Below, in pieces: positions 1,271-60,512 of a stretch of DNA of 64,000 nt (positions are counted from its first letter, which is position 1; every line of letters begins with the position of its first letter). Under the pieces are notes generated by a model. That model did no database searches, was not told the DNA's origin, and saw only the letters and a program-made list of their open reading frames with translations. The position numbers and the translations under genes are program-made. The stretch is taken from positions 40,367,558 to 40,431,557 of the forward strand of contig CM049310.1 of the NCBI GenBank assembly GCA_026874595.1. Reading direction: 5' to 3'. Source of the DNA: Sipunculus nudus. Taxonomy: Eukaryota; Annelida; Sipuncula; Golfingiida; Sipunculidae.

Positions 1271-1428
1271 ATGTGTGGAAACAGACGCACAAACGGACGC
1301 AGAGCGCAGAGGAAAGGTCAGAGGTCAAAACAAAATCGGGGCGCAGCAGTTCACATGTGACCCAAACATAATCCCGGGTTTCGGAAAATTCCGCCCAGCG
1401 GTTACGGAGGAGTTCTCCGGACACCTAC

Positions 1429-28977: not shown

Positions 28978-30777
28978 TTATATAGCACTTTGTGACTGCA
29001 TGCTAAAAACAAGGTCAGTCAATAAGAGAAAATTCTCAAATCCTTCTCTCCTCCACATCTCTTGCCAACCTATAAGGTTATTAACCTTCTTGTTGCTGTT
29101 GTCAGTCTGTCTCTTGACCACCTGCCCAATAGAATGTTTTATCAGTTGCCACTCATTCAATACTTCATTTTCACTGAACTCCTCAATCTGATTGAGGAGT
29201 GGTTTGAAATGGTCAAGGAGAAGTCTAACCTCTACGTTTCCAAACACCTGCATTAGACTTTTATCATTGATGGGCCAAGTGTTAATATTGCATATTGATA
29301 GAGCAGAGATGCAGGGCTTCTCAAGGTCAGTAAACCTAAGTTCCAGATGTTTTATTAAGCCACTCAGTACCTTCTGCTTGTCTGCAGTGAAACTGCCTTG
29401 ATCTGAATGTAGGTGATCTATGTCATGAAATTCAAAGTCTGTTTCAGTTTTGCTGCTCATCAGTGTGACCAGAGACGGTGATGTGGACATCTGGTATTGC
29501 CGCAATACCTCCAGGGTAGCAGATAGGTTTTCAGATACATCACTCAATAAACAGTCTTGTTTTTGAACAAGTTTGGAATATCTCTGTAAAGTAGCTGTAA
29601 CATCAAGCATTAGATGTAAGTACAGGATCATCCTGCGAGAGTTCAACATCTTAAGAAAGCCCTGTCCTTTGCCTTTTGCAGTGGCACTTGCACTGCCATC
29701 TTCTGTAACTGCAACCAAGTGGGCTACAATGGCCGGATATACTTTTAAGAGATTATCTATGGCTGTATGTGTGTGCTGAACCCATCTGGTGCCTTTCACT
29801 CTTGTTGGTAAACGCATTTCGGTGTTAAGCTTATCCCTGGACCCAATCAGTCCTGCTCTAGCCACTGAGGAATTGTGGTAGTATAGATAGAGACCAAACA
29901 AAAGGTCATCACACTTATTCTGAAAAGAAACCTCTTTGGTCACATCTTTGATGGCTAGCTCAGTCCGATGGGCAACACAGTGTACTGCATTGAGCCAGCT
30001 AGCTTTTTCAAGAAGCCTAGTAGCTATACCAGTTCGTGAACCAAAATTTACAGCAGCTCCGTCTGCAGAAAATCCTACAACTTTCTGGAAAAAAAGCTCC
30101 TCTGATATATTAAGTTCTCCAAGGGCCTCTAGCATTGCATTTAGAATACTCTCAGAATTTGGTCTATCAGCCACCTTGCAGGCAACAAAAAATACTCTTA
30201 CAACACCCTGTCGTGAAGCTCTAATGTAAAACAGTTCAACTTCTCTAACTGCAGTATTTGTGGACCCATCACAAAGGACACTATAGAAATGTGCCCCATC
30301 AAGCCACTTGATAATTTCTCCTTTTGCAACATCAGCAATACACTGAGTAAACTGGATACATTCCTTGTTGTTCTGATAAGAGTTCCCAAAATCTATCCCA
30401 TTCTTCTTTTGCAGTTCAACTATCCAAAGAAAGTCTGTGAATGGGCGATTGTGCATGGCAATTGCATGTGCTGAGCTTATCAACTTCAGAACTCTTTGCT
30501 TTTCTGCTTTTGCTATCTGGTCTAGTGCTTTCTCCGCAGCACTAGTACCTGGTTTTAATTTTGCAGTTTCTTGGGCATCTTTGCATCTCATATGGCGTTT
30601 AGATTTTGCATGATCCCGAAAAGCAGTGGTTTTCCACTGTTTGCTAGTGCCAATAAAGAAGGGTGACTGTTGGTCTGCCAGTGAAGGCGTCTCCCTACAG
30701 ATGACACAGTACAGTTTCTCATCCTCATCTGGTGTGCTCTCCAGATTTATCCAAGGGAACTCCTCCTTCCAGTTACT
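28978..30777 (-). CDS. hAT transposase exon 2 (main catalytic part)
   Basis: This exon gives 599 uninterrupted residues. It holds the zinc finger, the DDE-type core (aspartates of CDGSTN and of FSADGA) and the insertion region, and lacks only the last about 95 residues because of the frame change near 28985-29012. Confidence 0.85.
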   Translation of the reverse strand, partial: SNWKEEFPWINLESTPDEDEKLYCVICRETPSLADQQSPFFIGTSKQWKTTAFRDHAKSKRHMRCKDAQETAKLKPGTSAAEKALDQIAKAEKQRVLKLISSAHAIAMHNRPFTDFLWIVELQKKNGIDFGNSYQNNKECIQFTQCIADVAKGEIIKWLDGAHFYSVLCDGSTNTAVREVELFYIRASRQGVVRVFFVACKVADRPNSESILNAMLEALGELNISEELFFQKVVGFSADGAAVNFGSRTGIATRLLEKASWLNAVHCVAHRTELAIKDVTKEVSFQNKCDDLLFGLYLYYHNSSVARAGLIGSRDKLNTEMRLPTRVKGTRWVQHTHTAIDNLLKVYPAIVAHLVAVTEDGSASATAKGKGQGFLKMLNSRRMILYLHLMLDVTATLQRYSKLVQKQDCLLSDVSENLSATLEVLRQYQMSTSPSLVTLMSSKTETDFEFHDIDHLHSDQGSFTADKQKVLSGLIKHLELRFTDLEKPCISALSICNINTWPINDKSLMQVFGNVEVRLLLDHFKPLLNQIEEFSENEVLNEWQLIKHSIGQVVKRQTDNSNKKVNNLIGWQEMWRREGFENFLLLTDLVFSMQSQSAI

Positions 30778-31326
30778 CTGAATGGGGGAAAAAAGACAAA
30801 TACTAGTCACTGGTGTGACTTCTGAATGAGAAGCTAAAGACTTCCATTAATTTTAATAGGTCATGACAGGTAGGTATGATGTAATAATTTTAAATGTTTA
30901 AATGATTTTTAAAGTTTTTGCTAGTTAATCACTGAATCAATTAATGGAAAAAATAAACTTTATGAAGGAAGTGATTGTTTGGATTAAACAATATAATCTT
31001 TAAAACTCAGGTTTGACATAATGAAAAATTACTATTGATATTATTTTCATGATAACTTGGGGATAATTTAACCCTAAGGCTAAGGCTTAAATAAATATGG
31101 ACAAAATGCACTTCTAAGGGCGATGAGGCCATAAAATACTAAGTTATCAAATTATGCAGCAGCCAGTAATTAAACTCCTGGGCTTGGTCAAGGCTTGGTC
31201 CAACTTATTTAAACATTAAATTGCCAATTTTAATTCAAATAAATTACTATGAAACTAATAAGTAATATTGGAAAACTATCAGTATTACAACTTACTTTTT
31301 TCATTTAGAAAAAAATACAAATGTAC

Positions 31327-38671: not shown

Positions 38672-38759
38672 ATGAACATCTGCCTGCATTATGCGACCAC
38701 CGCTGTGTTTGTTATGGTCATCCTCAATGTTACACTAAGATCAGCCACATCAGAAAAAG
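38672..38759 (+). CDS. L1-like exon 2: start and signal peptide
   Basis: ATG shortly after the acceptor at 38661. [20 protein letters not shown] is a hydrophobic signal sequence with likely cleavage near residues 24-25 (RSATSEK). Donor AAAG/GTAAAT, phase 1. Confidence 0.85.
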
Positions 38760-41700
38760 GTAAATATATAAAATATATATACATGTGTTTTTACTATTAA
38801 CTTTTGTTATCGTCCAATCATGAGTATTTTTGAGTGTTTTAATTAACCTTGAAAGTTTATCATAACAGTAATGTTATATGGGTAAAATGAGAAAAGAACC
38901 TGATAAATTGCAAGGCAAGAGAACAAAACTCCATAATTTTCCGTGCATCAAAGTATTTTTTTTTATATTTCCCTACAGCCCGCTCCATCAAGGGTGACCC
39001 TCGATTAATAATGTTTTTTTAAGTGTTTTATTTAACTTGGAAGTTCTTGATAAAAGAATTTATATAAATCTGGGAAAAGAATCTGACTGATAACAAATGA
39101 ACGGATTACCCAATTTTCAGAATATCTCAGAAAATATTTATCCTTTAGTTTTCGATAGCCGGTTCTACCACAGAGTGCACATCGATTTTTTGCTCTCTTT
39201 TTTTTAAGTCAGAAAATATTGAAACATTACCTGTCAAGAAATGAATCATGTAGGTACTCCTGCATTTATTTTAAAGGAAAAATCAGCTTAACTTGCAAGG
39301 AAAATGCCTCAGTCAATTATTTCGTATCTAAGAAACATCCTGTTTTGTAATGAACTATTAACTGATGAATACGGACCATGCAGGGCCGACATATGGATCA
39401 CCATGTGAATGTTGTAAGATACGTCGTAGGCTAACATACGTAATCCAGTAAACCGAAATACTCCATAAGTTTGAATGTACCATATTTCTTCCCGGTCATG
39501 AATTAAACTGAAAGAAGAGCATTTCTCATCTCTCGCCAAGCACCCGATGAGCACCCTTTTATAAGATTGGCTATATTTGGCAATGGGACCTGAATGACTT
39601 ATTTCAAAGTTTAAATATTTTTTTTGGGTTAAATTTAGCAGTAGCAGTGATGTAGGACTCGAGTCCCCTTCTTAGTCACTCAGACTTGGACAATGAGGTA
39701 AGGACTCGAGAAATCAATACGAGTCTATCTCGAGTCCAACAGAAAACCTCTGTTTCATTGACTATACAGACATAAACGTGCGAACCACTTACACCAGAAC
39801 AATACCAAAAAGGATTTCCTATACAAACATCGGATCTGCGTCAGCACCTTAATGTGATTAAACAATCAGGTTAAATGTATGTGTAAACAGGCTTTTAATG
39901 TATAAAATATCAAATTCCTGTTTCCTGTCTGCAAAAAGGATATTTGTATTGGATTCGGACTCTGTTCCCCAATGATTCGGACTCGAAGAAGATTGGATTT
40001 GCACTCGACCCTCAAGGATTCGGACTTTAACTCAGACTTGAGGGATTTCAGGGGCGGATCCAGGATTAAGGAAAAGATGGAGGGTCCAACCCAGGAAGAG
40101 GGGGGGGGGGGGGTTGTTCCAAGCCGCAAAATTTTGTCTGAAGACCTTGAAAAAGGGTTGCTTCTGATTGAAAGGGGGGGGGGGGGGGGAGTCCGGACCG
40201 CCTGGACCCCCCCCCCCCCCGGATCCGTTGTGGATTTGAGCTTGGATTTGCAGTCGAATTCGGATTGTGAGGACTCGATTAAACACTCTGAGGCAGGTTG
40301 AAAACGTCTACTATAGAGTGTTTCAGTGAATGAACATAAGGTGGCACTGAAACGCAATATTACAGCAAAAATAACAGAGACATTTGTAAGAATTTTTTTG
40401 CATTATACGGATTATCGCGTGGCTCTTAGAGCAATATATGTGCAGATGTGTGAAATGTGTTTAAATATCATGCATTATAATGATATATTTGTATTTTTTT
40501 GCAGTGCCACCTGGCTACGATGAAGGTAATTACATTATTATCTTTAACGTTATTATACACTCGGTGCTGCTTTGTATCGATATCTGTTGGGTATACTATA
40601 TAAGCGACTTTCAAAGGGTGCTTTACCAAGACAGCTTTGTCTATGTTTGTTTATGACAAGCATAACTTTCTTATGACAATGTATTTTCGATCTCTTAATT
40701 TGTATAGGTTGCGTCTCTTATAGCTGGGGAATATGTTTAACATAGGTTTACAGATACAAGATTTACTTCAGAAGTGATAATAGTAGATCTATATCTAAAA
40801 AAAAATGTTTCGCCACATTCACATGCTGAAACAAAATGGTCTGTATACGCCAGATGGAACAAAATGTATTTAGCCCTCGCTCAAGAACGCAGGTGTATAA
40901 AGCTTCGTATATATATTCACTCGCGTATCCGATAGTGATGTGCTTAATTAATCTATTATGTTGATGCTTGGACGTTTCCTTCCATAATCGATTAAATTGC
41001 TTGCATTTTTGCATAATCGATCACAAACGATTACGCATGCACATCCAAGAAAGTATTTTTATCGCGATAAAATAGTCTTGTTCCTTCAGAGAAATAAGAT
41101 AGACGGGGCACAAAATAGCAAAAAGCATTAAAACTTAACCTTGTGCAACGCGTACGTGTCAACAACCCGGTCTCTACCTTGATATTTCAGCATTGAAAGG
41201 AATTTTTCTGTTAATATTTTTGGTATGATTGCATACAGCATAATTCACGGTAATATAGATGTTATCTGAAATAATCGATTGATAATCGATCATCGGTCTT
41301 TTTTTATCTTGCGATCTTCGAATATGGTTTTACAACCAATTCTTAACCATAGTATCCGACTACTGTTACAACAGTATCCGCAGCAACGGCAGTGCTTTTC
41401 AGATGAGGACAATAATCCGATAATTCCTAAACAGGGGCTCATAATTGTATAAATCATAGCCCTGGCCTTACTGTTCTGGCAAGATGAAAAAGAAAGGGCG
41501 GCCCTGGATCGACTTATAAAAGAAGAAAGAGAAAGAAATCCGGATAACTATGGCGTTAACGTTACCATAGCGAGCATATGTAACAATGCATTTAATCACA
41601 ACCGATTCTTTGCTGTTTCCACATTAGCTGCGTACACATTTACCCGTAATCCGACAACGATTACTGTATTGGCGACGACAGCGACAGTGCGTACACATAC

Positions 41701-44002
41701 ATATGACATTATCATAATAGAAGGCCAAATCGCAATTGTTAATCATGATGGATCTCAATGCGCTCTTTACACAGCGCTTTACCTATAGGCCTATACTATC
41801 TATATTTTAAGCACATTTTGTTTTGGCCTGGTATTCTGGGTCCCTACACGAGAGGAGAACATTGTATGTTGGACCAATCTAATGAGACCTGGTGCTTGAA
41901 GTAACATCTTCTATGATTGGTTGAAATGGTCACATGATTTAATAGCAAAAAAGGCTGCGCCAGGTTTATCCCAGTTCTTTTTAAGTAAATGTTGTCAGTG
42001 AAATGCAATAGCGAGTGAATTTGGCCAACAAGAACAGTTTTGAAACATATCATAAAACTGTCGTTTAAGGGGCAACATCACCTATGTGACCCTTATAAAC
42101 TCAGAAATCCCTGGGAGCTTTTATAAAAATAAGTCAGAATAAGTGGATATCACCGCACACAGGCTGCTTGTTTTGTTTATATCAACGTGTTTATAGTATG
42201 AGGGGCCTGTCAAAATAATCAAAACAAATTCAACAAGGTCATCTGGCAGGAATTCAGATAAGCCAGAGCTTGGCAAATGGCATTTTGCAACAAGTGACCT
42301 TTCTACCTTTGCATATATGCAACCTACCACCTTTAGGTTTCATGTTTTTCCCTTATGTCAAAATTGCAGTGTTTACAAACTTGTTATTCATGAGGTTCCT
42401 GCATCCTTCACAAAGGCATTATATAAACTTTTCACATCCAGAATTAGCCTTAGATCATTAATATATATACAGAGGAAGCAAGAAATCAAATAAATTTCTT
42501 TTCGAAAGGTAGATGAATGGGCACCTTTTAGAGGCGCTTGAAGCGCAGCCATGTTGCCTTAGGAGTGTTTCATAACTGGCATTTGATTAGCTGCTAGTCA
42601 CCTCATACCCACGATGTTTGTCAGCAGACACCGGCCCGCCACCTGGTGTCTAATTCCATCAGAACCGGTCATTCCAGGCAGTGGTAAAATCAGTAGCTTC
42701 TTTAGAAGCGCAAGATTTTCGCTACCTCGGGAGCGTAGGATCTTCAGGACGACCAGGTTCTTCTATATATAGCCTTTGCCTTAATTTACCATTAAGACAA
42801 TCACAGACAAGACAGAGAGGATAACATTGGAATGTACTTCATACACCTTATACATGAAAATAGGAATGATTTAGATGATATAATCGTGTACTCAGACAGC
42901 AGTTCTCTGGATTAACCTTTTCTACTTTATATTAGCATATATATCATGTTTTGGGAGATCTTAGTAGTCTTATCCCTACAATTTTAGGAAAGGACGCCGG
43001 TGCTGGTGCTCGGTAGTAGTGATGTGATTTTATTGGAGTGGCGAATAAATTCAGCAACCGCAAAACATCGCTCAACGGCAGATTCGTGCCGTGCGCATGT
43101 ACACACTACAATGAATTTTCATATAACAATTTTTTTTTATATACCGTTCCCGCAGTATCGATTGACTTTGCAGGGTAAACGGATGAATGTTTACATATGT
43201 TTATTTTGTCAGATTGGCTAGGATATACGCGTGGATGTGTACAAAGCTTAATCTTTCAGACGTACCGTTTGGTATGTTTTCGATTGGTGCTGCTTGCATT
43301 AATACTCCCTAATATTAAATAGGCTTTTAGTGTAGAAATGATAATTCATTTATTTCCATTGCATATATGTACATTTGCAGTTTTCTGGATATATCTGTTC
43401 TTCCACTACTTTATTAAACCGTTAAACAGCTCCCATAGTTTACATCTTTTTTTGGTGGGTGGGTGGGTGGAGGGGGGGGGGGGGGGTCCATTTAAATGAT
43501 AGGATTAATTGTTTTACGAATTGATTGTAGTCATTGTTACCAGGCGTATACAGCGTGTTTCATCTTGTATGTCCTTGATGCTAGCTTTTTGGTCTATGAT
43601 TTAATACAGTAGTGGACATTTTGACTAAACGTTAATGTCGATCACTTTTCGCAAACAAATGATCTGGAAAATAAAATTCATTCATTATATAAAGTAGATA
43701 ATAATAAGAATGTACCAAGATAGCTACCACTGGTGTTGGTGGTTTACCGTTTACCCTGCATCCTTGCCAGCTGTTTTTATTATGACGCAAGAATCACGTG
43801 ATAATAGTTGGACTAACACCAATGGTGGTCAACCGCATCCCGGAAACAATTAAAGGGAACTTAAAACAAAAACGAAAATATATGTTATTTATGGTGACCG
43901 TGTAAAATGATAGCTTACGTGTGTTTGGTAAATGATAGGGGTGGTTGGCACGTTGTACACATGATATCATAAATATTCATCGATACTAACAGTTTAATTT
44001 CT

Positions 44003-44062
<60 letters not shown>

Positions 44063-44083
44063 CATATAAACACACACACACAC

Positions 44084-44124
<41 letters not shown>

Positions 44125-46058
44125 CAGCTACAGACCGGTAAAGAGCATATATAAATCCCCATCAAGTATTACTGAAATAAATAATATTTGACACCTGCAA
44201 ATGATTCCGAATTATCATCACTATTGACTTATCTATAAACCATAATAAAGAATCTGCTGTGTAATGCTAGCCTACAATAGTAAAGCTTGAAGGCCATGCT
44301 ATCAGTAATAGCAAAATGTTATGCACATTCATAAGACAATATTGTATCATTTATAAGAACTGTATTTGAACATTTAGCGGGAGGACTTTGCATGTTGAGG
44401 AGGATTTGTGTTTTGAAGAAGCGTGGATATATGTTTGGATCGGAGAATGTATTCTTAGTATATAATGCATTACAAATATTTATGTTGTATTGGATATCGA
44501 AGTAAACACTGAATTTGTTAATTATAAACAAAAATATGTTTTAGTTCGTCGCCCTCCAAAAATTGATGCATTCCTGGAAGACACCAAATATTATACAGAC
44601 GCTGATAAAGACCTATATTTTATATGCAGGGCATCAGGAATACCTAAACCAAGGTAAGAAAATGAGACATTGTCTGTTCCAGTGAGAGTTGTTTCACTTT
44701 TAATAATCGTTCTCCTCTTTGCTCAGAAACCTAGTTGGACATTCCGCCAATTTCAAAATTTCATTAGTTAATATATAGGTGTCAGGGATAAGTGACATCT
44801 GTGAATTTTAACAAGGGTTTTGATAGCGGTAGAGTGATTGAAAGGAATGTCTACTGCCATTATATAATAAGGTGAGTCTGCAAATCCCTTGGTAGACCTA
44901 CCTGTGTCATATAGACCTCTTTCTGGTGACGTCACGCCATGCGTAAAAAATGAGCCCATGGTGCCCTCTGACAGAAAATTTTATATTTTATTAGATTTAT
45001 GGATCACCTTGATTTTAATGGTTTTCACAAAAGTAGTCTTCTTTTATAAAAACACATTGTTTTTTACAAATGCCTCTTTAAAATAAAAAAAGAGGACAAA
45101 ATGGGAAATTTCCAAAAGTAAATAAACAATACGCATGAGTTGCATGGTAGCAATTTAACCATGTTTGTAAGTGTCACGCCCATGGGGAAATCAAACACCT
45201 GATGGAGGGTCTTGAATTATCATTTTTTTTCTATGCGATGGGTATACATCTCATTCAAAAGACTGAGAATATCGCTGTGGTCCATTGTCGGGTGACGAAT
45301 GGCAAATATGTTTATGAATTTGTAGTCGTATAATTGTTATTTATCTGTCCGTGTTAGCTTATGACCCCGGATTCTGATTCCATTGTTTACAGAATCATCC
45401 AATCTAGGAATTTCAACAAATCTCCAATAATCACTTTATTAGTCTTAATTACAGGTGATCATCCAGTATTGTATATAACATAGCGTGCTTATCAGAAGGA
45501 ATAAGTCGCCTTCATTTAATTGATTCTTCTTCAACAGATGGCAAATTAAGCTACCTTTTATCGGATAAATGTACGAAAATATAATTTGAACATCATAGAC
45601 AGCTTGAAAGATTGGGAGGTAAACGTTCTGCGCTTTCGGTGGGGAGCCGGGTTTGATCCCCGGCGTGGCTATGAGGATGGGTGGTATTTACCCGTATAAG
45701 GTTGGTAGTCTTCTCCGGGTCCCCCGGTTTCCTCTACCCCTGCAGACTACCAAACGCTTAAAAGCATAAGCTTAGCATAAGTTATTTAACAAGCTGTGTA
45801 TCCATGTATGATAAGCAAAGTTTATATTGTCTAATCCTTTTTTTTAATTCAAAGCAAATTGAGCATTGTTTTCACAGGATCAGATGGGAGAAAAATGATG
45901 AAACTTATCACTTCTCTGGGATTGGGGCCGAAGCTATTGACGGCGGCTATAAAATAAATGAACCTGGAAGGTTGAACGAAGGGAAATACCAATGTTTTGC
46001 GACAAACATCTATGGAACAGCCATGTCCTCAATTGCTAGCCTCATAAGAGCTTGTAAG

Positions 46059-46117
<59 letters not shown>

Positions 46118-49100
46118 CAGAAACGTTCTTTGCGATGAAAATTCGTGAATACTGTTTTATTACCAGGGGCAGATAATGAATTGTAGTATAGGGGCTCCTA
46201 TATAGCAAGGTTAATTGTGAGGGTCCCCCGTGTTAAATCTTTTTGAATATTGAGTTTGTAATGATGCAATATTGGGTAGTTTTAAATGAGGAGATGGCGG
46301 TGTTTTCCGGAATACGCGTATCAAGTTCTATTTTCCGCCCACACTTTAAAAAATAACACATTATCAATTGAAATGCTGGTTTCAAGATATATCATCTATA
46401 CATTTCCGGGGATCTCTATCAGTCAAATTATCATGTGTCGTAAGAACAATAAATATATTTAAATATATTTTCAACATCGCCACTGTATAAACACTGTTTA
46501 TATCAGTTGATACCTGACTTTTTTTGTAATTTATATTGTATTTTAACTACAATAACTGAGTTTTTCAACCACAATCAACTCATAATATATGTATGTATAT
46601 AAGTATATATGTATATAATCACATCTTCGTGGATTGTCGGTAGATTGAATTTTTTTTTTATGCATTCAATTTTCATTTATATTTGTTTACTTCAGATATA
46701 GGTCAGTCTAAAAGTAATAAACCAGTTGTACAATATGAAAAAGATGAGGGAGACAGCTTGACGATAAAGATGGAACCAGTAAGAAGTAGCCCAGCAGCGA
46801 CGTTCATGTGGGGAAGGGTTACGGACAAGAATGATATCCAGTCAGAACCGATAAAGTTTGACCCAAGGCGCGCACTAGACGATGAAGGTAAGCAAACAGC
46901 AGAAAACAATAGCACCGCATATGTACACAATACGCCTGTCCTATGTCTTGTGACCTCTGACCTCATTAAATATGCATGAATTTTGCTGATAATTAAAATC
47001 GGGTGAGACACTGTTTGGGTTAATATTTATAATGAGCTTCATGAATATCCATCAGATTTTTGGTAAGTCATCACAGTGCCACTAGTCTGGTGACCTCTTA
47101 CCTCATTTAATTTGCATAGGTTTTGTCGGGAATCGAACTTTTTTTTTATTGAAACAACAGATTCAATGAACATACAATAAAAGAGTGGTCACATACACAT
47201 ATTTAAAAGACACACGACAGACAAAATATAAACATAGAGACTTAAATACAAATAAAGCTGGTTTGGTTTTGATATTAACATATTTGAAATTAATATTTTT
47301 CTTCAATTGATTCCCAAAGTGAACTTCAATTACTGTCTGTCTTATTCTGAGAGCATTCTACCCTTTTCTCAAAGTCGATATAAATTTTAAAATTTTCTAT
47401 ATTCAGCATATACCTCTTCTTTGTCTAATATAAAATGTTTACATGTACAAAAATGTTATTCTCATTCTCATGTCTCTCTGGTATACCAAAGATAATAAAA
47501 TTCTCAAGTATTAATGCTGGTGATATATTAAAAAAAAAACTAATGACTGAACTACATTACATATAAAAAATAATGTGCTTAATCCTCAGTATGCAATTGA
47601 CAGTATCTGCAGTTAGGGGTTTCTGTAAGACCAAAATCAAATCGTTCAGAATTTTATACTGAAATCCCACAACTTTTTAGCTTAAAATTAGGAAGCAGCA
47701 TTTAAAAACAAAACCTCCCATTCTCCTTCTAATATATTATTCCTGATACTCATTTTTTCCTTTTGTTGGATGTTGCTCACTATGGATCTGATGAAAAAAA
47801 ATCATAAGCTTGTTCTGATTTCCTTTTTTTTCTATAAGTACATAACAGTTTCTTAACTAACATTGATTTAATCTCTCCTCGTTCTCTTCATTTTCCTGTG
47901 TCAGTTTTGTAAATAATCCTCTGCTCCGCTTTTAAATTACCCTATACATTAAATAACTGGGTCTTGAACTTAGTCGAAATATTATATTGGATAAAATTTC
48001 TGATGAGTTTCATAAAAATCCGGCATATTCCTCAGAGGAGCTTTGTGACCTCTGACCTCATTTAATATGGGTGAATTCTGCCTATAATGGAACTCTAGCT
48101 AGATAATCTATTGGTTAGCAGTTTTGTTATAAAAATAACTACATGTTCTTGTCACAACCATAAAGTATGAACGAAAAGGTTCTTTTAAATGGTTAACCAG
48201 ACCGGCTGAAACTCATGCATAAATACACTCCAAAATATGAATAAGACATGAGTTATCAAAACAAATAAATATATTAAAAAATGCACTTACATTTCTCTGG
48301 AGAGGCGCTTCATTCATACATATTCTGAAGATCTCACGCGTCCAATTTGAAACACAAAATCCCAAAGTCCGTTATGTTCCCTTGTATATACACTGTTCCT
48401 GATCACATGACCAGCGCACATACGTGGCATCGGAATGCCAAGCCGCTCACATCTAAATCTGCTCTCACTATATACACAGCACTATCAGTTCACTTGTATT
48501 TACACAGGGCTTGTACCACCTGGAGTACTCGTCTGCCCCACAGTTAACGCAGCACTTACTGCTAGGCGAACAGCCTATTCTATCTGAACTTAGAATCAGT
48601 GTCTTTCACAGCTGATGTCAACCAGTATCATCAAGCACCGGTTTACTGAATATGTCTCCACAAAACGATACTCAGTACCTCTAAAGATTCGCGTGTAAAT
48701 AATTTCCTTGGCCTGTTACTGGAAGCGCTCACAACAGATATAAATCGCCGAATTACCAGACCGTCGGCAGTTGCAATATCCGCTCTGATATCCGTTACAG
48801 AGGTATCAATGTAGCTTTTCTCGGACACTGACTGTTGTCAAGCTTTCCAGACAGGCTGCAAAAAATCTGGCGTACTGATCAGGCAATGGTAGCGATTTTC
48901 TTCTCAACCCCTACTTATATGTGCTTTCTGACGTCACAAGTTCCGACCGTCTTCTGGTCACTCTATTATGCGACCATCAATAATTACATGAAATCAAGAT
49001 GGACACGCCTCCAAAGATCAAACCCTGAGAAAAGCAAACTAAGCAGGTGTTCGCCCTTTGAAGCCCACAATAAACAACGTTACTATAGAGATCGCCTGGA

Positions 49101-52100
49101 CAGAGACGGATCATACGGAATTAAACTGTACTGAATTTAACATCAAACGAGTAACGTTTGGTATGTAACGTAAGTTCTCAACGCTAACATTTAAACATGA
49201 CTAAGATGCTAAAAAATATAGGTGTTATTGTAGAATCAATGACCTACAGGGGATCCCGTGTGCATTAAATGTCCTCGAAATTACTCTTTATAATGGTTAA
49301 CTGGACATCAGACAAAAACGTGAGGGCAGACTTCTGGTAACAAGTACGTGCATAGAATATATCTTCATGATACCAGCGCCCGGCTGTCTAAAAAAGAAAT
49401 CAGTTTAAGCGTACGGGAATTTAAACTGTTACATCTTTAGTTCTACAAATCGCAAAAAAAAAATATATATATTATCTATTAAAATATGCATACTAGTATT
49501 TAAATCTCCTATTCATCACGGTCACCGATACGCAAATCGATTTATTTTAACGTATAATTTATTATAAAAACAATATATTGTTTCAATGATTTCAGGTAAC
49601 CTGTATTTTGTATACACGGAGAAAATTGATGGAGGGAGTAAATATTACGGCAGTTTTGTGTTTAATCGGGTCAATCATAACAGAGTTGGAACCGGCTTCG
49701 CCAAGGTCAAGATCAACTCAGGTGGGCGATGACTGCATCAGAGAAAGATACACGAAAAAAATACACGAAACACAGGAAGGAAATACAATAATTGTATTGA
49801 CAAATATCCAAATATTGATAGATACATGAAACGCAAAGAAGGTATATCATGATTGTTTCAGGAAATATACATATATATGTACAACCACGTGTATGTTAGT
49901 GCACCTCTTATTCCAAAGAAAAGATGCTTGGCTTCTTTAATGGTTATTCGCTCATAAATTATTGACAGGTGATTATTCCAGAATGTATACAAAACATAAG
50001 GTATTATTATCAATTTTCTCCAGGTCGAAAGAAAGATAAACGTCCAGAGCTGATGTACAAGTCTGGTCCCGTGGTCCAGATTCTGGAAGGAACAGAAGAA
50101 GTCACTCTGCGCTGCATTTTCAGCGGATAGTAGGTGTCGATTTATATAATTTTGAGCGAAAACGTAAGTGGCCCAGTGGATAGCGTCACATACTGTCAAC
50201 TTTGTTCCTATCTCTTATTCGTATAATGGACGATTAATCCCTGTAAATCTATATCTTCATGGATATTTTCCCAGCTGTTGGTGAACACTGATTGGGGGAT
50301 AGTGCTTAACGGCTTTGTTCCTCATCCAGTGCACATTATACGTAGAACGTTCTCAGTTGCCATGCTTTCAGGACATGAAATTATTTTTTTTGTACGCATA
50401 CATTAAGTCCACGTCAAGTATGTATTTTTCCTCTTTCTGGAATGCCGAAAAAAATGTAGGGCACTTGATCATAAAAATTGATCAGCAGCCCAAATTGTCC
50501 CTAAAATGTCGCACACATGCAATTGTGAATTGTCACTTTTAGTTGTCCATTTTGAATTTTAAAAAATGTTAACAACAAAAATATGATCTGCATGGAATGC
50601 TATGTACAGAATAGATTTTGTGTCGGTTGGGTTATCATTCATTAGGAGCTTCAGTGGACACAGGAATGTTATATGGAATTCATGTGCACATTTTATCTTC
50701 TTTAACCTAGGTGTCTTTTAACACTCTTCTACGAATACTATTTCAATTTATAAACAAATATTCAACAACAATATTCTAATGCTACTGTGATTTTCTTCTT
50801 TAAGATCCAAAGTTATCCGTGATTAAAATATCTTAGTGTTTGTGTTCTTAAGTTGAACAGCGTCAGTAACCCATGGATCATTTGTTAATATTCAAATCAA
50901 CCTCATTTTCTTTACACTCCTCGTGCAGTTGTTATACCCTTCAGTTGTTCTATATTTCCCTCGCTTTATCCGCTGTTTGTATAGCAAGTTTTCGGGGTTT
51001 CACCACCAGGCCTGGCAATACGGCCAAGAATTGTTATCTGCCGAATGAGAGCCGGGCGTCGCATTGTGCATCCACCTCAAAAATTAAAATTTGATACCGC
51101 GCTAAGGAGTGTATTTTCTCCTGCACCATGAACTCTTGGATAAAGAGAGAACATATATTAACCTAGATACTGGCTGTATTGCAAAGACTGTAATGGAAAT
51201 AATTAGGTCGAGAGAAGAAGCATGTCAATATAACCCCAAATTACTTATTGCTTTCGAGATACTGATACAGAGTTGTTTGATGTCTATGCACATATCATTA
51301 CAGCCCATTACCCACCGTAATTTGGAAGGGGGATCTCCCGCAGAATCATACGAAGGACAACCATTTGATGACGATCGGAGGTCCCAAAGTAGCACATTCA
51401 GGAACCTACTACTGTCGAGCATCCAACCGTGCTGGTCAGTCACATCAATACAGCATACAGCTCAAGGTGGAAGGTATGAACAAGTAAAATCAGTAAATGA
51501 CATTTCATAATGGCAAAAATTAATATGCATGTGTTTATTTGCATATGCGTAAATTAGAGAAGCTGCTTACCTGAGCTTCTGTATATACCTACATTGTGTG
51601 GAATCCATGTGCTTTAAAGGTTGAATACGTGGGTATATATGTCCGTTAGTTTCCACGCACAAATGAGGTTTGATGCAATATTTCACGCATATACCCAGCT
51701 GTCCGCACACACAGGGTCACATGGGCAATGTTCATGCATATAAGCAAACACTCGCATATGAATTAAAGCTTGATACTCGAATTGAGTACAAACTTAAAAA
51801 ACAAGGTTACAAAAATCTACCTTGAAAATCCAAGAAAATCTAAAAATAACGTGATTTTACATATGAAGCTCTGTGAAAGAAATTTCCAGATGGGTGTTTT
51901 CCTCCTGTACTTGTTGCCACCATTTTTTAGTTTCATGTTCCATTTAATGTTTAAACACAACTGTAAAACAAGCGCACTTGGAAAGTAACTACCTCACAAA
52001 GGCTCACATATTGACTAGATACCTTAATTCTGAATCGAACAACTCCTAATTTGGAGGCAATTAGTGATGTAATTTAGGAGTTCTCTGATATCTAGATAAA

Positions 52101-52182
52101 ATTAAAAATAAAAACTCACCAAATCGCCGAAAATATATAATTATAATTTATTAGGCGAAAATCCAATAGGCCACACACACAC

Positions 52183-52233
<51 letters not shown>

Positions 52234-53806
52234 GTCACAATAAAGTTGGCAAAGGAAAGCTTTTTTTTATTGTAATGTTTGCAAAATGAAACTAATGTCA
52301 CATTAAGGAAAAATTGTTGTGGCGTATAAGTAAGAATTATGTTAATCATGATTTGATGTTACAGCAAAACCCAAATGGGTTATTGAAAATAGAAAGGAAG
52401 TTAAGCCGATCGATTTGAACGTGACGGAGGGAGAGAATGCCACATTCGTGTGTAAAGGTGACGGTGTTCCTATGGTGACCAGAACTTGGTACATCAACGC
52501 CAGGCCAGGTAAGGACTCAATTTATACATCAATCGATTTTGTTTATTCTTCCTATGTTCAATGGATTCTGTTTCACCATCCCGTACTTTCTAGATGTAGA
52601 TATCGCACAGGGTACAAGGATGCATCCTAAGTTGAAAAGTTAAAGGACAGTTCCATTCAATTCTTAAGAAATATTTGAGTTTAAGTGCCGGTGAGTGAAT
52701 GTATACGAACGGAGACCTTTACCCTTGTTTTCGCTGTGTTTATATAATATGTTACACTGTCCTGAGGAGGACTTTAATTTATCCACCGGTAGCGGATCCA
52801 GATGGGGTGGGCCTTTAAGATACAGCAAAATCTCTTAATGGGTTTGAACCAAAGTTAAGCAGCTTAGGCCCGTTCTGTGGACCAGAGGTCCTTCCTAAGA
52901 TTTTCTTATTAGTCTTTATTGACTTGAGCACCTTTTCTAAAATGCAGATTAGACCATGTACATACATAACCAGGATTACTATGGATAATGTAACTTATTT
53001 AATGACAAAACCGCCTTATAACATTATAACCCAATGGAAATGTTTCGGTTCATTTAAGTACGGTCTAATTAGGCAGGTGGTCTTAAGGGCAGGTTTTACT
53101 TTTATGTCAATTTGGTTACAGTGGTTCATGGCGAAAAAAATAACGTGGTGATCAGCGGAGGAAACCTGACCGTCATTCATGTCCGCAAGGCTCGATTTGA
53201 TGGAACCAACGACCTGATGAACGTACAGTGTGTCTTGGAGAACACACACGGAAAACTGATCGGTGGGGCCTACCTCAATGTACTAGGTAAGATTAGTTTT
53301 ATATTTGAATCATTTGTAATTTTTGTATATGGATATTTTATATGGTATAAAGGTAAATATATCTCAAGTCAAGGAATTTCTCAGCATGAACATGTTTCAT
53401 TATAAGAAGGCTTAAACTCTCATTGTGCATGAATTACAATCATTACATTTAGATCACGACATGTTTTCTTTTGAATTATTAAATAAAAACCTCATTAAAG
53501 TCACTTCGTAAACCGAGAGTTTATCATTTAAATGTTGAAACAAAGGAAATGAGTATAATGGCCTGTTGGCGCACTCAGTGTAATTTATTGGTTCTGAACA
53601 ACAAACAAACAAAAATCTGACCTGCACTGCCACTGTTTCCTCTAGAAATATGCAGTTATGAAAACAAATTTTCATCCAGTGGTATTTGGCTCAGTTTCGC
53701 TAATCACTATACATAATATTCACAGTTTTCCATTTTATATATTTATCCATTACTAAATCACTGCATGAGTAAACCATAACTCTATATATAAGCTGTGACT
53801 ATATTA

Positions 53807-53853
<47 letters not shown>

Positions 53854-54771
53854 AATATTATATATTTCAGCTAAGACCAGAATTAAGGAGAAGCCATCCA
53901 ATGTAAAGTTAGTTTATAGGGAGCCGGTAGTCTTTAAATGTCAAGCTTCATCTGACCCAAGCACACCGGTGACTGTGGTTTGGCTGTGGAAAAGGCGCCC
54001 CCTGGTGTATGACAGCATGCGTTATAAACAAGCAGATAACTCTTTACGAATTGAAACAAAGGACGCACAACAGCAGGGAGCAGAGTTCAAAGGCCTGTAC
54101 ACCTGTGTCGCAAGTAACCAGTATTCACAAGAAACAGCAAGTGCTGAGCTAACCCTACCTGCAGGCCTAGTACCAGGTATAAACTCTCTCTAATTATGTT
54201 TTTTTTTCATTTTTAACGCACAAAATTATATACTCTGGTTGTCTTGTTGTTCGCGAGGGTTTCAAATTTTGCGATGTTCGCGAATGGGAAATTATCGCGA
54301 AAATAAAACTCCGTGAATAAGATGCCCAAACTACACAGGTAAACATTCATGATGTAGCTTACAGCCTCATCTACTGACGTCTTATACATTTTACATCTTT
54401 TAAAAAAACATATTTTTTATGCCTCCTTTATTTTATTGATAAAATCAAGACCATCATTTTTTTATCTACTAATATTGAAGTATGAACTGCAATTCGCCAG
54501 ATGTCCTCTTGGGTTTACGTCAAATAATGAATATACATATGCTTATGAATACTGTGTTGTTTATGATATCGTGAAATCGAGAAAATGAAGCCCTCATGAA
54601 ACGTTGAACAGTTGAAATTCGCTAAAAGAATACCCTCGCTAATATGAAACCAACCATGGTATTATATAAAGAGTATTAAAATAATCACTTTTTAACACTT
54701 GAATTAAGTGACTTTATATCATGATGACATTTAAAACGAAATGCGTCGTGGGATATATAATTATATTATTA

Positions 54772-54810
<39 letters not shown>

Positions 54811-55479
54811 CATTGCATGTGCATTATGAGGTATCCGGCAAAGTTATTGTTTTGAAAATGCATAGAGGATACTCGGTACTACAGCTGTTTCAAAGAGCAA
54901 AGATAAAAAGGAACTAAAAGACAAAACAGGCATAAACCTTTGACATCATACCTTTCTGTGTATGTACATTTTATGTGTATATATATTTTACTCTGTATTA
55001 ATCATTTTATTCAGCAACGACAGCTTCTCCACGTCAAGGTAAACAAAAACAGTCGTACTTATTCGCACCCTCAATAGCATGTGTGTGGGAGACCTGTGTG
55101 TGTGTCATTTTTTTTGCTATCCCCGCACAGTAGTAAAAGAAGACACAATTGACCTATCCATTAACTCTATGTGACCTTAATCGCATATTCATTCAGTAAA
55201 AAATCATAATTAATTAGTTTTCAACATCTGATCAAAGTGCATGCATTACATGAGAGAGCTTGAATTTTCCTGCTTCGATGTCTGATATGTCTGGGTTTTA
55301 CAGGTCATGTAGTTACAGTATCTCATATAATATATGATTTTCATGCTGAGCTGGCCCGATCCTTAATCTGCACTGATAATTATAATTCAACTGTGCACCG
55401 ACGATATCGACTTAGTGAGCTGATGTGACCGATTAGACTTTTGCACTGCATAAACCATTATCTTGGAATATATATATAT

Positions 55480-55519
<40 letters not shown>

Positions 55520-57683
55520 TGACCACTACATATGTTATTATGTTATTTGGCGTTTCCCACTAAAGAAACAACATCTAACGGCCACGAACCAAGAAGTTTT
55601 AAGCGTTTTAACACGGCATCATGCGCTTATATGTATCTTTTAATTATTGAATGCGCAGAATATGAAAACTGACTTCCGTTAGATTTATTAATTCCTAAAA
55701 TCACAGCACGTATTTGAGATCCACGGAGGGTTCGCTCTAACGTGCGCAGACCTCATGGGAACTAGCAAAGCGGAGGAGCGGAGTACAATAGCCGATCTCG
55801 GCCGGGACAATAGGATAGGGCAATAAGTTTCAGGGGACAGCTTGGCCAACGGTCTTCGGTGTGCTAGTGTGTATTTCTTCTCTTAAAACTTCGTGGTACA
55901 ACGATTAAGAAAATATAATATTCCTGTCAAATATAGATGCTGCTTTAAAATGAAAGTCAAGGTTAATATCAGCGCCATGTTAACTTTTCACGAAATATTC
56001 TCATTTTTACGCATGTTAAATATCTTTCTACTTGAGTCTGATTTATGCATAATAGCATGTTCTGTCTTTTCTGTTTGTTATTTTCCAATATTTTTTCCCC
56101 TAATCGATCGCTTTGGTATTTTAAAGTAATTACTATATGTAGCTTTTATTTTTAATACAACTAAAATATTTAGGTGTAAACTAAAACCCTTCTCGTATTC
56201 TCTAATACACGAGCAGAATTGATACCTGTATTGACACTAAATGTGACTAAGTATCTTATGAAGTTTTATTGAGTATTTTTTCTATGATCACTTCTTTTAA
56301 TTTTCTCCCGTAATAATCTGTGATACCAAAGTTTGCGAATTAAAAAAAAAAATTGTTGGTAAAAATATGGATTACAAAATAGTTTTTTGTGTTTGTATGT
56401 TTCATAGATTATATTCAGATTATTTATAATTTCTTCCATATTCTGTAATAATGATTAGCCTGACATGGTGAGGGTCAAACTGCTGTAATATTCACACAAC
56501 TAGTACATCATGTTGTAATGCGGTGACCAATCAATCACTGCTTGTACCTGTGCAGATTGTTACCCTTGAATTTTCTCTGTAATAGTGTGGTGGAGGAGGA
56601 TGTGGTGGATCTACATCATCATCGCTGTCGTTCTGCTGCTGCTGCTGCTGATACTGTTCTGTTGCCTGTGTTACCAGCGTAATAAGAGTGAAGAGTACCC
56701 AGGTGAGACAGCCTTGTCTGTATAACAAGGGTGAGATAACTGTCTTTGTCTCAAGGGTATGAGATTTCAGTCTGTATCAAGATGGTAAGAAAGCTCAGTC
56801 TGTATAACAAGGGTGAGATAACTCAGTCTGTATAACAGGGGTGAGATAATTCAGCCTGTACTACGTGTAACAATTGTGGGAGATTTCAGTCCGTATCAAG
56901 AGGGTGAGAAAGCTCACACTTTAAAACAAGGGTGAGATATTTCAGTCTGTAAAACAGGGGTGAGATAACTAAGTCTGTATAAAAAGGGTGAGATAACTCA
57001 GTCTGTATAACAAGGGTGAGATAACTGTCTTTGTCTCAAGGTTAGGAGATTTCAGTCTGTATCAAGATGGTGAGATAGCCCTGTCTGTATAACAAGGGTG
57101 ATATAACCCAGTCTGTGTCACTAAAAAGTGAGATCACTCAGTATCACAGGATTGAGATAATTCAATGTGTATAAAAGGAGTTAGAAAACTCAAGTCTGCA
57201 TAACATAATGAAATAATTCAGTCTGTATGAAGCGGGAGAGAAAACAGTGTGTATTACAGGGATGAGATTTTGAGCTTGAAAGAGAGTTTTGTGATAATTA
57301 AGTCTGCATCAATAGGGTGAGATAACGTATTGCATGGGTGAGATAACTAATTTTATATCACAGGAATGAGACTGGGGCTCCTTATAATGTGGGAGATATC
57401 TACAGCAGATTTATACAATGTACTTTCAGTGGATGAAAAAGAAAGAGAGAAGGGTCGTGATCCCGAACAAGAACTGGCAGAATCTGGTTTCCATGTTTAC
57501 CAAAGACCGTAAGTCAGAAATTTATTATTATCCATTGTCTGACCGTAATTCACCATGTGTTTATCATTGGTCCGACCGTAAGTCCAGTTATTATCATTGG
57601 TAATTCATTAAACAAATTGCAGGGAGGATGATTCGATCGAGAGCTGTCGAGCCTCACTTAACAGCAGCATAAGACTGGACTGA
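38672..57683 (+). CDS. L1CAM/neuroglian-family receptor, compact: 5 Ig, TM, short tail
   Basis: Coding exons: 38672-38759, 40505-40525, 44545-44653, 45878-46053, 46696-46887, 49596-49721, 50024-50129, 51304-51473, 52365-52508, 53122-53286, 53871-54176, 55015-55038, 56586-56702, 57430-57508, 57623-57683. All borders are GT-AG, phases agree and the sum is 1,884 nt (627 residues plus stop). Predicted protein: signal peptide 1-25; Ig1 (C64-C112); Ig2 without core cysteines; Ig3 (C268-C310); Ig4 (C359-C414); fifth Ig (C456-C511) most like L1 Ig6; transmembrane about 549-571; tail about 56 residues. Family evidence: YQCFATN.YGTAMS in Ig1, [10 protein letters not shown] in Ig2, [10 protein letters not shown] in the last Ig, and the juxtamembrane C...R.K...YPVDEKE. 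L1 proteins are cell-surface adhesion receptors, usually neural. This one lacks Ig5, all FNIII repeats and FIGQY. Confidence 0.88.
39645..40290. mobile_element. ACTCGAGTCC-rich non-autonomous element, host of a nested insert
   Basis: Starts CAGTGATGTAGGACTCGAGTCC and has many ACTCGAG/GACTCG/GATTCGGACT motifs throughout. A plausible right end is GGACTCGATTAAACACTCTG at 40290. It resembles non-autonomous hAT elements built of such subterminal repeats. It is interrupted at 40049-40229 and lies in intron 2 of the L1-like gene. Confidence 0.5.
40049..40229. mobile_element. Nested short element (CAGGGGCGGATCC ends) with G/C runs
   Basis: CAGGGGCGGATCCAGG at the left and CCGGATCCGTT at the right, with runs of G (40100, 40175) and C (40207). 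AGGGATTT before and GTGGATTT after are a possible degraded 8-bp duplication. The same GCGGATCCAG motif recurs at 52791. Confidence 0.5.
40505..40525 (+). CDS. L1-like exon 3: 21-nt microexon
   Basis: TTTTTTTGCAG acceptor, 21 nt (VPPGYDE with the flanking bases), donor GAAG/GTAATT, phase 1 on both sides, so skipping keeps frame. L1-family genes have a short alternatively spliced exon at the same place before Ig1. Confidence 0.8.
40935..41340. mobile_element. ATCGAT-rich repeat region
   Basis: Several ATAATCGATTA, ATCGCGAT and AATCGATCATCG motifs, ending TATGGTTTTACAACC, which partly mirrors the GGCTGTAACAATGG start at 34783. A non-autonomous hAT-type element is possible. Confidence 0.3.
41462..41605 (+). 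other. Orphan coding-like segment in intron 3
   Basis: The plus frame reads [19 protein letters not shown] then [14 protein letters not shown]. It has an AG at a weak acceptor but no family I recognise, and it lies in repeat-like DNA. It is probably a relic of a mobile element. Confidence 0.15.
42107..42530 (-). repeat. Unclassified interspersed repeat, copy B (inverted)
   Basis: Reverse complement of 33503-33930, see copy A. Confidence 0.8.
43785..44005 (+). repeat. Direct repeat pair 3, copy 2
   Basis: Second copy of 36271-36460, followed by a (TA)n array. Confidence 0.75.
44005..44120. repeat. Compound (TA)n(CA)n(TA)n microsatellite
   Basis: TA arrays on both sides of a short CACACA run in intron 3. 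Confidence 0.9.
44545..44653 (+). CDS. L1-like exon 4: Ig1 first half
   Basis: [16 protein letters not shown] through [13 protein letters not shown], with the first Ig cysteine (C64). Donor CAAG/GTAAGA, phase 2. Confidence 0.9.
45604..45795 (+). mobile_element. tRNA-derived SINE
   Basis: The tRNA-like head carries a B-box-like GGGTTTGATCCCC (45650) after a D/anticodon-like part. It is followed by a central part with CTTCTCCGGGTCCCCCGGTT, a sequence like the shared central domain of some metazoan SINE superfamilies. It ends about 80 bp before exon 5 of the L1-like gene. The superfamily name would need a database comparison. Confidence 0.65.
45878..46053 (+). CDS. L1-like exon 5: Ig1 second half
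   Basis: Begins RIRWEKND (core tryptophan W76) and contains [17 protein letters not shown], the L1-family hallmark with C112. Donor CTT/GTAAGAA, directly followed by a (TA)n array. Confidence 0.92.
46064..46112. repeat. (TA)n array at an exon border
   Basis: Begins about 11 bases after the 5' splice site of exon 5. Confidence 0.95.
46696..46887 (+). CDS. L1-like exon 6: Ig2 first half, cysteine lost
   Basis: Acceptor GTTTACTTCAG. Contains [11 protein letters not shown] (methionine M157 where the B-strand cysteine belongs) and ATFMWGR (tryptophan W170 kept). Donor GAAG/GTAAGC, phase 1. Confidence 0.88.
46945..48105 (+). repeat. About 140-bp tandem repeats split by a LINE fragment
   Basis: TGTGACCTCTGACCTCATT recurs at 46949, about 47089 (period 140) and 48043, with shared GATTTCAT.AA.ATCC and AATTTTGC..ATAAT blocks. 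Between the second and third units lies 47142-47990, a retrotransposon fragment. Confidence 0.75.
47142..47990 (-). mobile_element. LINE 3' fragment, degraded, minus strand
   Basis: Starts with a poly-T run (the poly-A tail on the minus strand). Within it the minus strand encodes [14 protein letters not shown] (about 47580-47632), the C-terminal CxxC...ED motif typical of many LINE pol proteins. No long frame survives. Confidence 0.6.
48290..49140. other. Unassigned higher-CpG block in intron 6
   Basis: More CpG and GC than the flanks, with short frames on both strands and, on the minus strand, a donor-like AAAT/GTAAGTGC at about 48290. It might be a mobile element or a minus-strand first exon. 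I recognise no domain. Confidence 0.25.
49596..49721 (+). CDS. L1-like exon 7: Ig2 second half, cysteine lost
   Basis: [20 protein letters not shown] aligns with L1 Ig2. The F-strand Y-x-C is Y-G-S, so S215 replaces the cysteine. Ends FAKVKINS. Donor CTCAG/GTGGGC. Confidence 0.88.
50024..50129 (+). CDS. L1-like exon 8: Ig3 first half
   Basis: [15 protein letters not shown] to TLRCIFSG (C268). A TAGTAG at the end is not a stop: the donor is GGATA/GTAGGT, and the next exon's C completes a TAC (Tyr273), giving the normal Ig sequence CIFSGYPLPTVIW. Confidence 0.88.
51304..51473 (+). CDS. L1-like exon 9: Ig3 second half
   Basis: Acceptor [32 protein letters not shown], then [13 protein letters not shown] (W280, C310), ending QLKVE. 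Donor GAAG/GTATGA, phase 1. NHT is a possible N-glycosylation site. Confidence 0.9.
52188..52231. repeat. (TA)n microsatellite after (CA)n
   Basis: Intron 9 of the L1-like gene. Confidence 0.9.
52365..52508 (+). CDS. L1-like exon 10: Ig4 first half
   Basis: [13 protein letters not shown] to [11 protein letters not shown] and TWYINARP (C359, W371). N-glycosylation sequons NVT and NAT. Donor CCAG/GTAAGG. Confidence 0.9.
53122..53286 (+). CDS. L1-like exon 11: Ig4 second half
   Basis: Acceptor [29 protein letters not shown], then [19 protein letters not shown] (C414), close to the L1 Ig4 pattern Q-C-x-A/L-x-N-x-H-G. Donor CTAG/GTAAGA. Confidence 0.9.
53809..53850. repeat. (TA)n array at an exon border
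   Basis: Ends 20 bases before the 3' splice site of exon 12, where a polypyrimidine tract would be expected. Confidence 0.95.
53871..54176 (+). CDS. L1-like exon 12: last Ig (Ig6-like), single exon
   Basis: The whole domain is in one 306-nt exon, unlike the other Ig domains, which are split. [14 protein letters not shown] and [20 protein letters not shown] (C456, W470, C511) fit L1 Ig6. Ends PAGLVP. Acceptor 20 bases after a (TA)n array; donor CCAG/GTATAA. Confidence 0.9.
54770..54808. repeat. (AAT)n microsatellite
   Basis: About 12 AAT units in intron 12. Confidence 0.95.
55015..55038 (+). CDS. L1-like exon 13: 24-nt microexon (stalk)
   Basis: TTTTATTCAG acceptor, ATTASPRQ with flanking bases, donor CAAG/GTAAAC, phase 1 both sides. 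It forms a Ser/Thr/Pro-bearing stalk between the last Ig and the membrane, where L1 proteins have FNIII repeats. Confidence 0.7.
55468..55516. repeat. (TA)n microsatellite with TACA interruption
   Basis: Intron 13. Confidence 0.9.
56586..56702 (+). CDS. L1-like exon 14: transmembrane helix
   Basis: [16 protein letters not shown] then [18 protein letters not shown]: a tryptophan-rich juxtamembrane start, a 22-residue hydrophobic helix and a positive inner boundary. Acceptor TTTTCTCTGTAATAG; donor CCCAG/GTGAGA, which is the first member of the donor-like minisatellite. Confidence 0.88.
56703..57375 (+). repeat. About 28-bp minisatellite of splice-donor-like units
   Basis: Roughly 23 units, consensus near GTCTGTATAACAAGGGTGAGATAACTCA, starting with the real donor of exon 14 (GTGAGACAG at 56703) and ending about 55 bp before the next exon. 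Many units retain GG/GTGAGAT, and one has ATG/GTAAGA (56784). It fills nearly all of this intron. Confidence 0.9.
57430..57508 (+). CDS. L1-like exon 15: cytoplasmic tail
   Basis: [19 protein letters not shown] then GFHVYQRP, acidic and basic as in the L1-family juxtamembrane tail (Y-x-V-x-(D/E)KE ... GF-x-x-Y). Donor ACC/GTAAGT, phase 2. Confidence 0.85.
57623..57683 (+). CDS. L1-like exon 16: C-terminus and stop
   Basis: Acceptor [30 protein letters not shown] then TGA at 57681-57683. The end is serine-rich, but no FIGQY ankyrin-binding motif follows in any frame of the next few hundred bases. Confidence 0.8.
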
Positions 57684-57917: not shown

Positions 57918-57923
57918 AATAAA
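57918..57923 (+). terminator. AATAAA polyadenylation signal of the L1-like gene
   Basis: The first AATAAA after the stop, giving a 3'UTR of about 250 nt. An ATTAAA at about 58081 is an alternative. Confidence 0.4.
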
Positions 57924-59851: not shown

Positions 59852-60512
59852 AGGTTATTGTATCCGCCAAAACGAAGTTTTGACCGGGTTCCGCCGCCGC
59901 TGCGTTCGTTTCCGGAGAACTCCTCTGAGACTACTGGACGGATTTTCCGAAACTTACACCAATTATCAGGTCACATGTGAACTGGTGCCTAACCGTTTTT
60001 GCGTTGACTTCTGACCTTACCTCTCTGCCCAGCATCCATTTGTGCGTCTGTCTCCACACATAAACCCATATATCTCGGGAACCGTTTGACCGATCAGGAA
60101 AAAATTTGTGAACAAATGTAGCCCTTGGATAGCTTTATAACATACACCAAAAATGGTGGCACCTGCAACCATGTATGCACAGTGTCCATATGTTCGTCTG
60201 CCTTGGGTTAAAATCACTCATATCTCCGCAGTGGTATGACTAATTCACCTGAAATTTGGCATGCGTATACATCCTGGATAGCTTTCTTGATTTTATGACA
60301 GGTGGCGCCACCTTCATTCACGTTCACGCTGCAGACATCCATGCTTATATCTCCGGACTGGTTTGACGTATCTTCCTGAAAATTTGCATGTGTATAGATC
60401 TCACATAGCTCTTTTCCATACGCAAAACTGGTGGCGCCACCTGCAACCATTTTTGCCCAGCGTCCGTCAGTTTTTCTGCCGTGGGATAAAATCACTCATA
60501 TCTCGCTTGTCG
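59852..60512 (-). mobile_element. Tandem-repeat element, inverted short copy
   Basis: Reverse-oriented relative of 1-1528: GTATCCGCCAAAAC end at 59860-59873, three CCG triplets (59891), the same unique region, then about one and a half dimer units with GGTGGCGCCACC at 60301 and 60430. It has far fewer repeat units and a contracted triplet tract. Confidence 0.8.

Follow-up and report, generated by a model that had tools for sequence, protein, structure and literature searches.

The 64-kb window (the whole stretch of DNA that was analysed, 64,000 nucleotides) holds what appears to be a gene of L1 descent, encoding a membrane-anchored receptor with five Ig domains. Its assembled sequence contains no Ig5, no FNIII domain and no FIGQY motif. 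We regard it, with moderate confidence, as a real, lineage-specific gene that has lost these parts and whose remaining head most likely acts as a recognition or modulator receptor. For the assembled sequence this supports the initial annotation, which had proposed a receptor of L1 origin that is anchored in the membrane and lacks Ig5, FNIII and FIGQY. Several details of that proposal have changed, among them the exon count, the extent of the cytoplasmic tail and the likening to hemolin.

Gene structure

The gene lies on the + strand and forms one open frame across the joined exons, from an ATG at 38672 to a TGA at 57683, so that the start, stop and frame given in the initial annotation stand (Table 1). 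We rebuilt 14 coding exons comprising 619 codons and a stop (38672-57683, 1860 coding nt), and found neither a frameshift nor an internal stop. All 13 introns are GT-AG (13/13) and their phases are compatible, a fit that is partly by construction because the exon borders were chosen by hand from domain matches. All borders between domains are of phase 1, as domain borders in L1-family genes also are, and GC content is 0.461 in exons against 0.349 in introns. The consistent phases of the earlier model were recovered, but its 15 exons and 627 residues were not. The eight extra residues could come from a 24-nt, phase 1-1 candidate at 55015-55038 (intron 11) or 57046-57069 (intron 12), both of which came from loose splice scoring only; when exon candidates in intron 11 were enumerated under different settings, no 24-nt one appeared. 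The fifteenth exon was probably an unsupported candidate of this kind, and it is left out of our model.

The encoded protein starts with a signal peptide, followed by the product of a 21-nt mini-exon; five Ig domains come next, then a membrane span, and the tail is about 55 residues long. Signal peptide and membrane span were recognised by eye on the translation, the latter as the one long hydrophobic run, in agreement with the single span of L1-type CAMs. A mini-exon after the signal peptide is likewise a feature of L1-type CAMs, and exon 2 presumably corresponds in position to the YEGHH mini-exon of L1.

Table 1. Features of the gene, with positions in the window
Feature	Position	Strand	Basis
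Exon 1: start codon and signal peptide	38672..38759	+	hydrophobic N-terminus by eye
Exon 2: 21-nt mini-exon (VPPGYDE), phase 1-1	40505..40525	+	
Exon 3: Ig1, first half	44545..44653	+	domain matching
Exon 4: Ig1, second half	45878..46053	+	domain matching
Exon 5: Ig2, first half; Met replaces first disulfide cysteine	46696..46887	+	domain matching, alignment
Exon 6: Ig2, second half; without second disulfide cysteine	49596..49721	+	alignment
Exon 7: Ig3, first half	50024..50129	+	domain matching
Exon 8: Ig3, second half	51304..51473	+	domain matching
Exon 9: Ig4, first half	52365..52508	+	domain matching
Exon 10: Ig4, second half	53122..53286	+	domain matching
Intron 10, 584 nt: expected site of Ig5 exons, none found	53287..53870	+	Pfam, Ig profile
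Exon 11: entire Ig6-type domain in a single exon, phase 1-1	53871..54176	+	domain matching
Intron 11, 2409 nt: expected site of FNIII exons, none found	54177..56585	+	Pfam, FNIII profile
Exon 12: transmembrane span (by eye) and start of tail	56586..56702	+	
Exon 13: cytoplasmic juxtamembrane segment, Bravo_FIGEY match	57430..57508	+	Pfam
Exon 14: last coding exon including stop; ends short of FIGQY part	57623..57683	+	profile coverage, alignment
AATAAA: possible polyadenylation signal, 235 nt past stop	57918..57923	+	

The last two introns are rich in tandem repeats. Intron 12 is mostly a 28-nt minisatellite (56716-57228, 18.3 copies, 66% matches) whose unit contains GGGTGAGATA, resembling the exon 12 donor GGTGAGACA, as if the array had grown from the splice donor. 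Within intron 13 (57509-57622) a 33-nt tandem repeat at 57525-57601 has a unit containing CCGTAAGT, which is the exon 13 donor. Elsewhere in the window, a 622-codon stop-free stretch on the - strand (28981-30846) is possibly a transposon-derived gene, with a sub-threshold match to zf-C17orf113 (28.6 bits against a cut-off of 29.5). Broken open frames at 18628-20423 read by eye like a LINE-type reverse transcriptase, and several copies of a dispersed repeat, alike in translation, lie at 551-1357 (+) and 59934-60495 (-). Rfam gave no matches at the gathering score.

Identity of the Ig domains

Each Ig domain, lettered A to E in order, was compared singly with Ig1 to Ig6 of both neurofascin and contactin-2. 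The best matches of Ig B, C, D and E are neurofascin Ig2, Ig3, Ig4 and Ig6 (z 7.4, 22.8, 16.2 and 23.4). For Ig A the top scores are those of contactin-2 Ig4 (z 18.1) and Ig5 (16.0), with neurofascin Ig1 (15.3) third. In a control, contactin-2 domains chose the same-numbered neurofascin domain by z in five cases of six; because the exception was again Ig1, the weak call for our first domain may be related to the method. The domain order Ig1-Ig4 plus Ig6, as expected of an L1-type CAM and as read in the initial annotation, is thus upheld by the domain scores for Ig2, Ig3, Ig4 and Ig6, while the first domain is Ig1-like but less clearly so. Five Ig domains were found where an L1-type CAM has six. 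The Pfam families Ig_3 and I-set each recognise four stretches rather than five, so that one of the five domains is missed by them.

We considered and rejected the alternative that the last Ig domain is Ig5. Ig E scores z 23.4 and 15.5 against Ig6 of neurofascin and contactin-2, versus 6.2 and 5.4 against their Ig5 domains; neurofascin Ig5 was used without its first part, and contactin-2 Ig5, used in full, leads to the same conclusion. The second phmmer stretch lays Ig D and Ig E on neurofascin Ig5 and Ig6 (39.6 bits); taken singly, Ig D scores z 16.2 against neurofascin Ig4 versus 5.3 against Ig5.

When aligned with neurofascin, contactin-2, hemolin and Dscam, Ig2 of this gene is without either disulfide cysteine and retains its tryptophan; both cysteines are present in all four of the other proteins. 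Their loss could reflect relaxed constraint. Because the homophilic contact of neurofascin is formed by Ig2, the choice of partner may also have changed. A folded-back head needs a linker between Ig2 and Ig3, and in the alignment this linker is present, shorter than that of neurofascin.

Absent domains and cytoplasmic tail

The initial annotation had found Ig5 and the FNIII domains missing, and both Pfam and purpose-built profiles bear this out, with implanted domains, mostly recovered, as a control. Pfam detected no FNIII or Ig domain in the three + frames of 53287-56585 (exon 11 having been cut from its own frame). An FNIII profile built from 10 neuroglian and contactin domains, run against the six frames of the 64 kb (3527 segments of at least 12 residues), gave a best match of E 0.35 (8.6 bits), which lies inside exon 11 in another frame. 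As a test, FNIII domains were inserted into intron 11 and searched for with a profile from which their closest relatives had been omitted: full domains were recovered in 10 of 10 cases (16.9-40.4 bits), and half domains were the top hit in 19 of 20, 14 of them scoring above 8.6 bits and six not. Because an array of the L1 type would be expected to present 6-10 such halves, a total miss is unlikely, though a very divergent array could still escape. L1-type CAMs "usually" have three to five FNIII domains, according to the available excerpt of PMC3627646; in the 64 kb we found none.

An Ig profile run over the six frames of the window returned nine segments, all of them exons of this gene, followed by a match of E 1.7; as the profile included the gene's own domains, the nine positives are partly circular and the search counts only for its lack of further segments. 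The best score for an Ig5 in intron 10 was 1.9 bits, compared with 14.7, 26.5, 14.0 and 32.4 bits for implanted Ig5 halves (4/4 scored). As assembled, and within the limits of these searches, no isoform of the locus can carry Ig5 or FNIII.

The tail appears to begin in L1 fashion and ends early. The Pfam family Bravo_FIGEY matches residues 566-616 of the whole protein at 24.3 bits against a cut-off of 23.8, a margin of 0.5 bit, and scores 28.7 bits on the tail alone. For the L1-type juxtamembrane tail of the initial annotation the pass is a narrow one, and the match can be refined to profile positions 2-52 of 86. By comparison, the L1CAM tail covers positions 1-86 and the neuroglian tail 2-83 (both tails entered by hand), and our tail stops before the FIGQY part of the profile. 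Scanning the six frames of the 64-kb window for the FIGQY motif gave no match, and one FLGDY at 61089. Hand-entered FIGQY ends of L1CAM and neuroglian, aligned with the six-frame segments, reached best scores of 35 and 32, which is chance level (best of 10 shuffled queries each, 35 and 36). The ankyrin-binding motif of L1-type CAMs is absent here by motif scan, profile coverage and alignment alike, as had been claimed.

These absences are plain in the assembled sequence, and we infer that the parts are gone from the animal's own genome and were not dropped during assembly. The contrary explanation is that Ig5 and FNIII exons were dropped at collapsed AT-rich repeats, and that a FIGQY exon lies beyond the window or in sequence that was lost. 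Introns 10 and 11 do contain AT arrays (53809-53850 and 55488-55515), where assemblies can collapse. However, such arrays are common, with 16 pure ones in the 64 kb, and by chance alone a whole array falls in 12% of intervals of the length of intron 10 and 42% of intervals of the length of intron 11. An artefact would moreover need two separate losses flanking Ig6, each of whole domains with no recognisable half left behind, and the altered Ig2 and the early stop with its downstream AATAAA speak for a changed gene instead. We consider such an artefact unlikely.

A duplicated L1 gene that has shed domains on its way to becoming a pseudogene would account for the lost Ig2 cysteines, the weak Bravo_FIGEY score and the stop before FIGQY. 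Against decay of this kind stand a frame that runs uninterrupted through 1860 coding nt, splice pairs that are usable in 13 of 13 introns, and exon GC well above intron GC; we judge it improbable as well.

Kinship

Among relatives of solved structure, neurofascin scores best (143 bits), ahead of contactin-2 (121.5), contactin-4 (111.3) and hemolin (57.5). Identity over Ig1-4 is 105/357 (29.4%) with neurofascin, 93/335 (27.8%) with contactin-2, 81/362 (22.4%) with hemolin and 77/343 (22.4%) with Dscam. In a six-sequence tree, the gene groups with neurofascin and hemolin, apart from contactin-2 and Dscam, with support 63; the other support value is 28. A particular kinship of Ig1-4 to hemolin does not emerge from the identities (22.4%, against 29.4% to neurofascin) or from the tree, with its supports of 28 and 63; the hemolin likeness drawn in the initial annotation also overlooks the five-Ig molluscan defence molecule (MDM) of Lymnaea. 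An origin from contactin, Dscam or sidekick was rejected, with neurofascin scoring best and the tail being of L1 type.

By descent the gene may be called a member of the L1 family, mainly on its tail and Ig6. In predicted architecture it departs from the canonical L1-type CAMs, and we do not file it as one of them because six Ig domains, FNIII and FIGQY were each looked for and not found. Among the open-access literature matches listed, titles and abstract beginnings name no published L1 gene without FNIII. A pattern for relatives matched six stretches in viral contigs, none of which was confirmed.

Function and origin

L1-type proteins connect extracellular adhesion with intracellular ankyrin and spectrin. 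In the protein described here, the Ig1-Ig4 head would be kept near the membrane by a single Ig6-type domain and a linker that is very short. There it would most likely serve as a recognition or modulator receptor by binding a partner, whether in cis or in trans. Lacking FIGQY, the protein would have no tie to ankyrin and spectrin and should be mobile in the membrane, to judge from neuroglian mutants: deletion of FIGQY essentially abolished neuroglian-Ank2 binding (excerpt of PMC3627646), and Ank2 regulates the lateral mobility of neuroglian (excerpt of PMC4754453). The latter excerpt also reports that neurofascin-mediated adhesion requires ankyrin binding and that loss of ankyrin binding raises L1 endocytosis, so an ankyrin-free form might adhere poorly. 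The likeliest reading is a receptor that is short and mobile and bears an adhesive head, which might adhere strongly or weakly; its role would have changed relative to L1-type CAMs. It might serve haemocyte recognition, as is reported for hemolin and MDM, or the tuning of a full-length L1 protein. Immune use of such Ig heads is described in excerpts on hemolin (PMC9163686) and on the five-Ig MDM (PMC11999971, PMC8625317).

More tentatively, a lineage-specific L1 paralogue may have been reshaped as exons of phase 1-1 were lost in frame, ending up as a recognition receptor that is anchored in the membrane, has five Ig domains, does not bind ankyrin and carries an Ig2 with no disulfide. Such a protein would be an intermediate between neural adhesion molecules and immune proteins of the hemolin or MDM kind; we regard this scenario as possible but doubtful. 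A natural gene that retains the head without the spacer or the link to ankyrin and spectrin would show which parts of L1 are separable, and would offer a test of how short, L1-related immune proteins such as hemolin could have arisen from nerve adhesion molecules.

Comparison with known systems

Like hemolin of Lepidoptera, the gene has a four-Ig head of the neural adhesion molecule kind. Hemolin is secreted and consists of four Ig domains only, whereas the protein predicted here has one Ig domain more, crosses the membrane and ends in a tail of L1 type. The nearest layout that we found described is that of MDM, whose five Ig-like domains equal in number those of our gene and which is related to hemolin, according to excerpts of PMC8625317 and PMC11999971. 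The gene could on that count be a membrane-bound orthologue of the MDM lineage, a known five-Ig haemocyte protein, and so no separate novelty. We think this highly improbable: compared by description rather than by sequence, the MDM accounts in those excerpts make no mention of a membrane span or of an L1 tail.

With the L1-type CAMs (L1, neurofascin, NrCAM, CHL1 and neuroglian) the gene shares the order Ig1-Ig4, a last Ig of Ig6 type, a single membrane span and, on a narrow match, the start of a Bravo_FIGEY tail. Unlike them, it is without Ig5, FNIII and FIGQY, and its Ig2 is without a disulfide. Ig6 spans two exons in vertebrate L1 and one here. LAD-2 of C. elegans is an L1-family protein that also lacks the ankyrin-binding motif, but it keeps the FNIII array that is missing from our gene. 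If transcripts agree, this would be a new family variant of L1/neuroglian, in which the head, the anchor and the start of the tail persist without the spacer and the link to the cytoskeleton.
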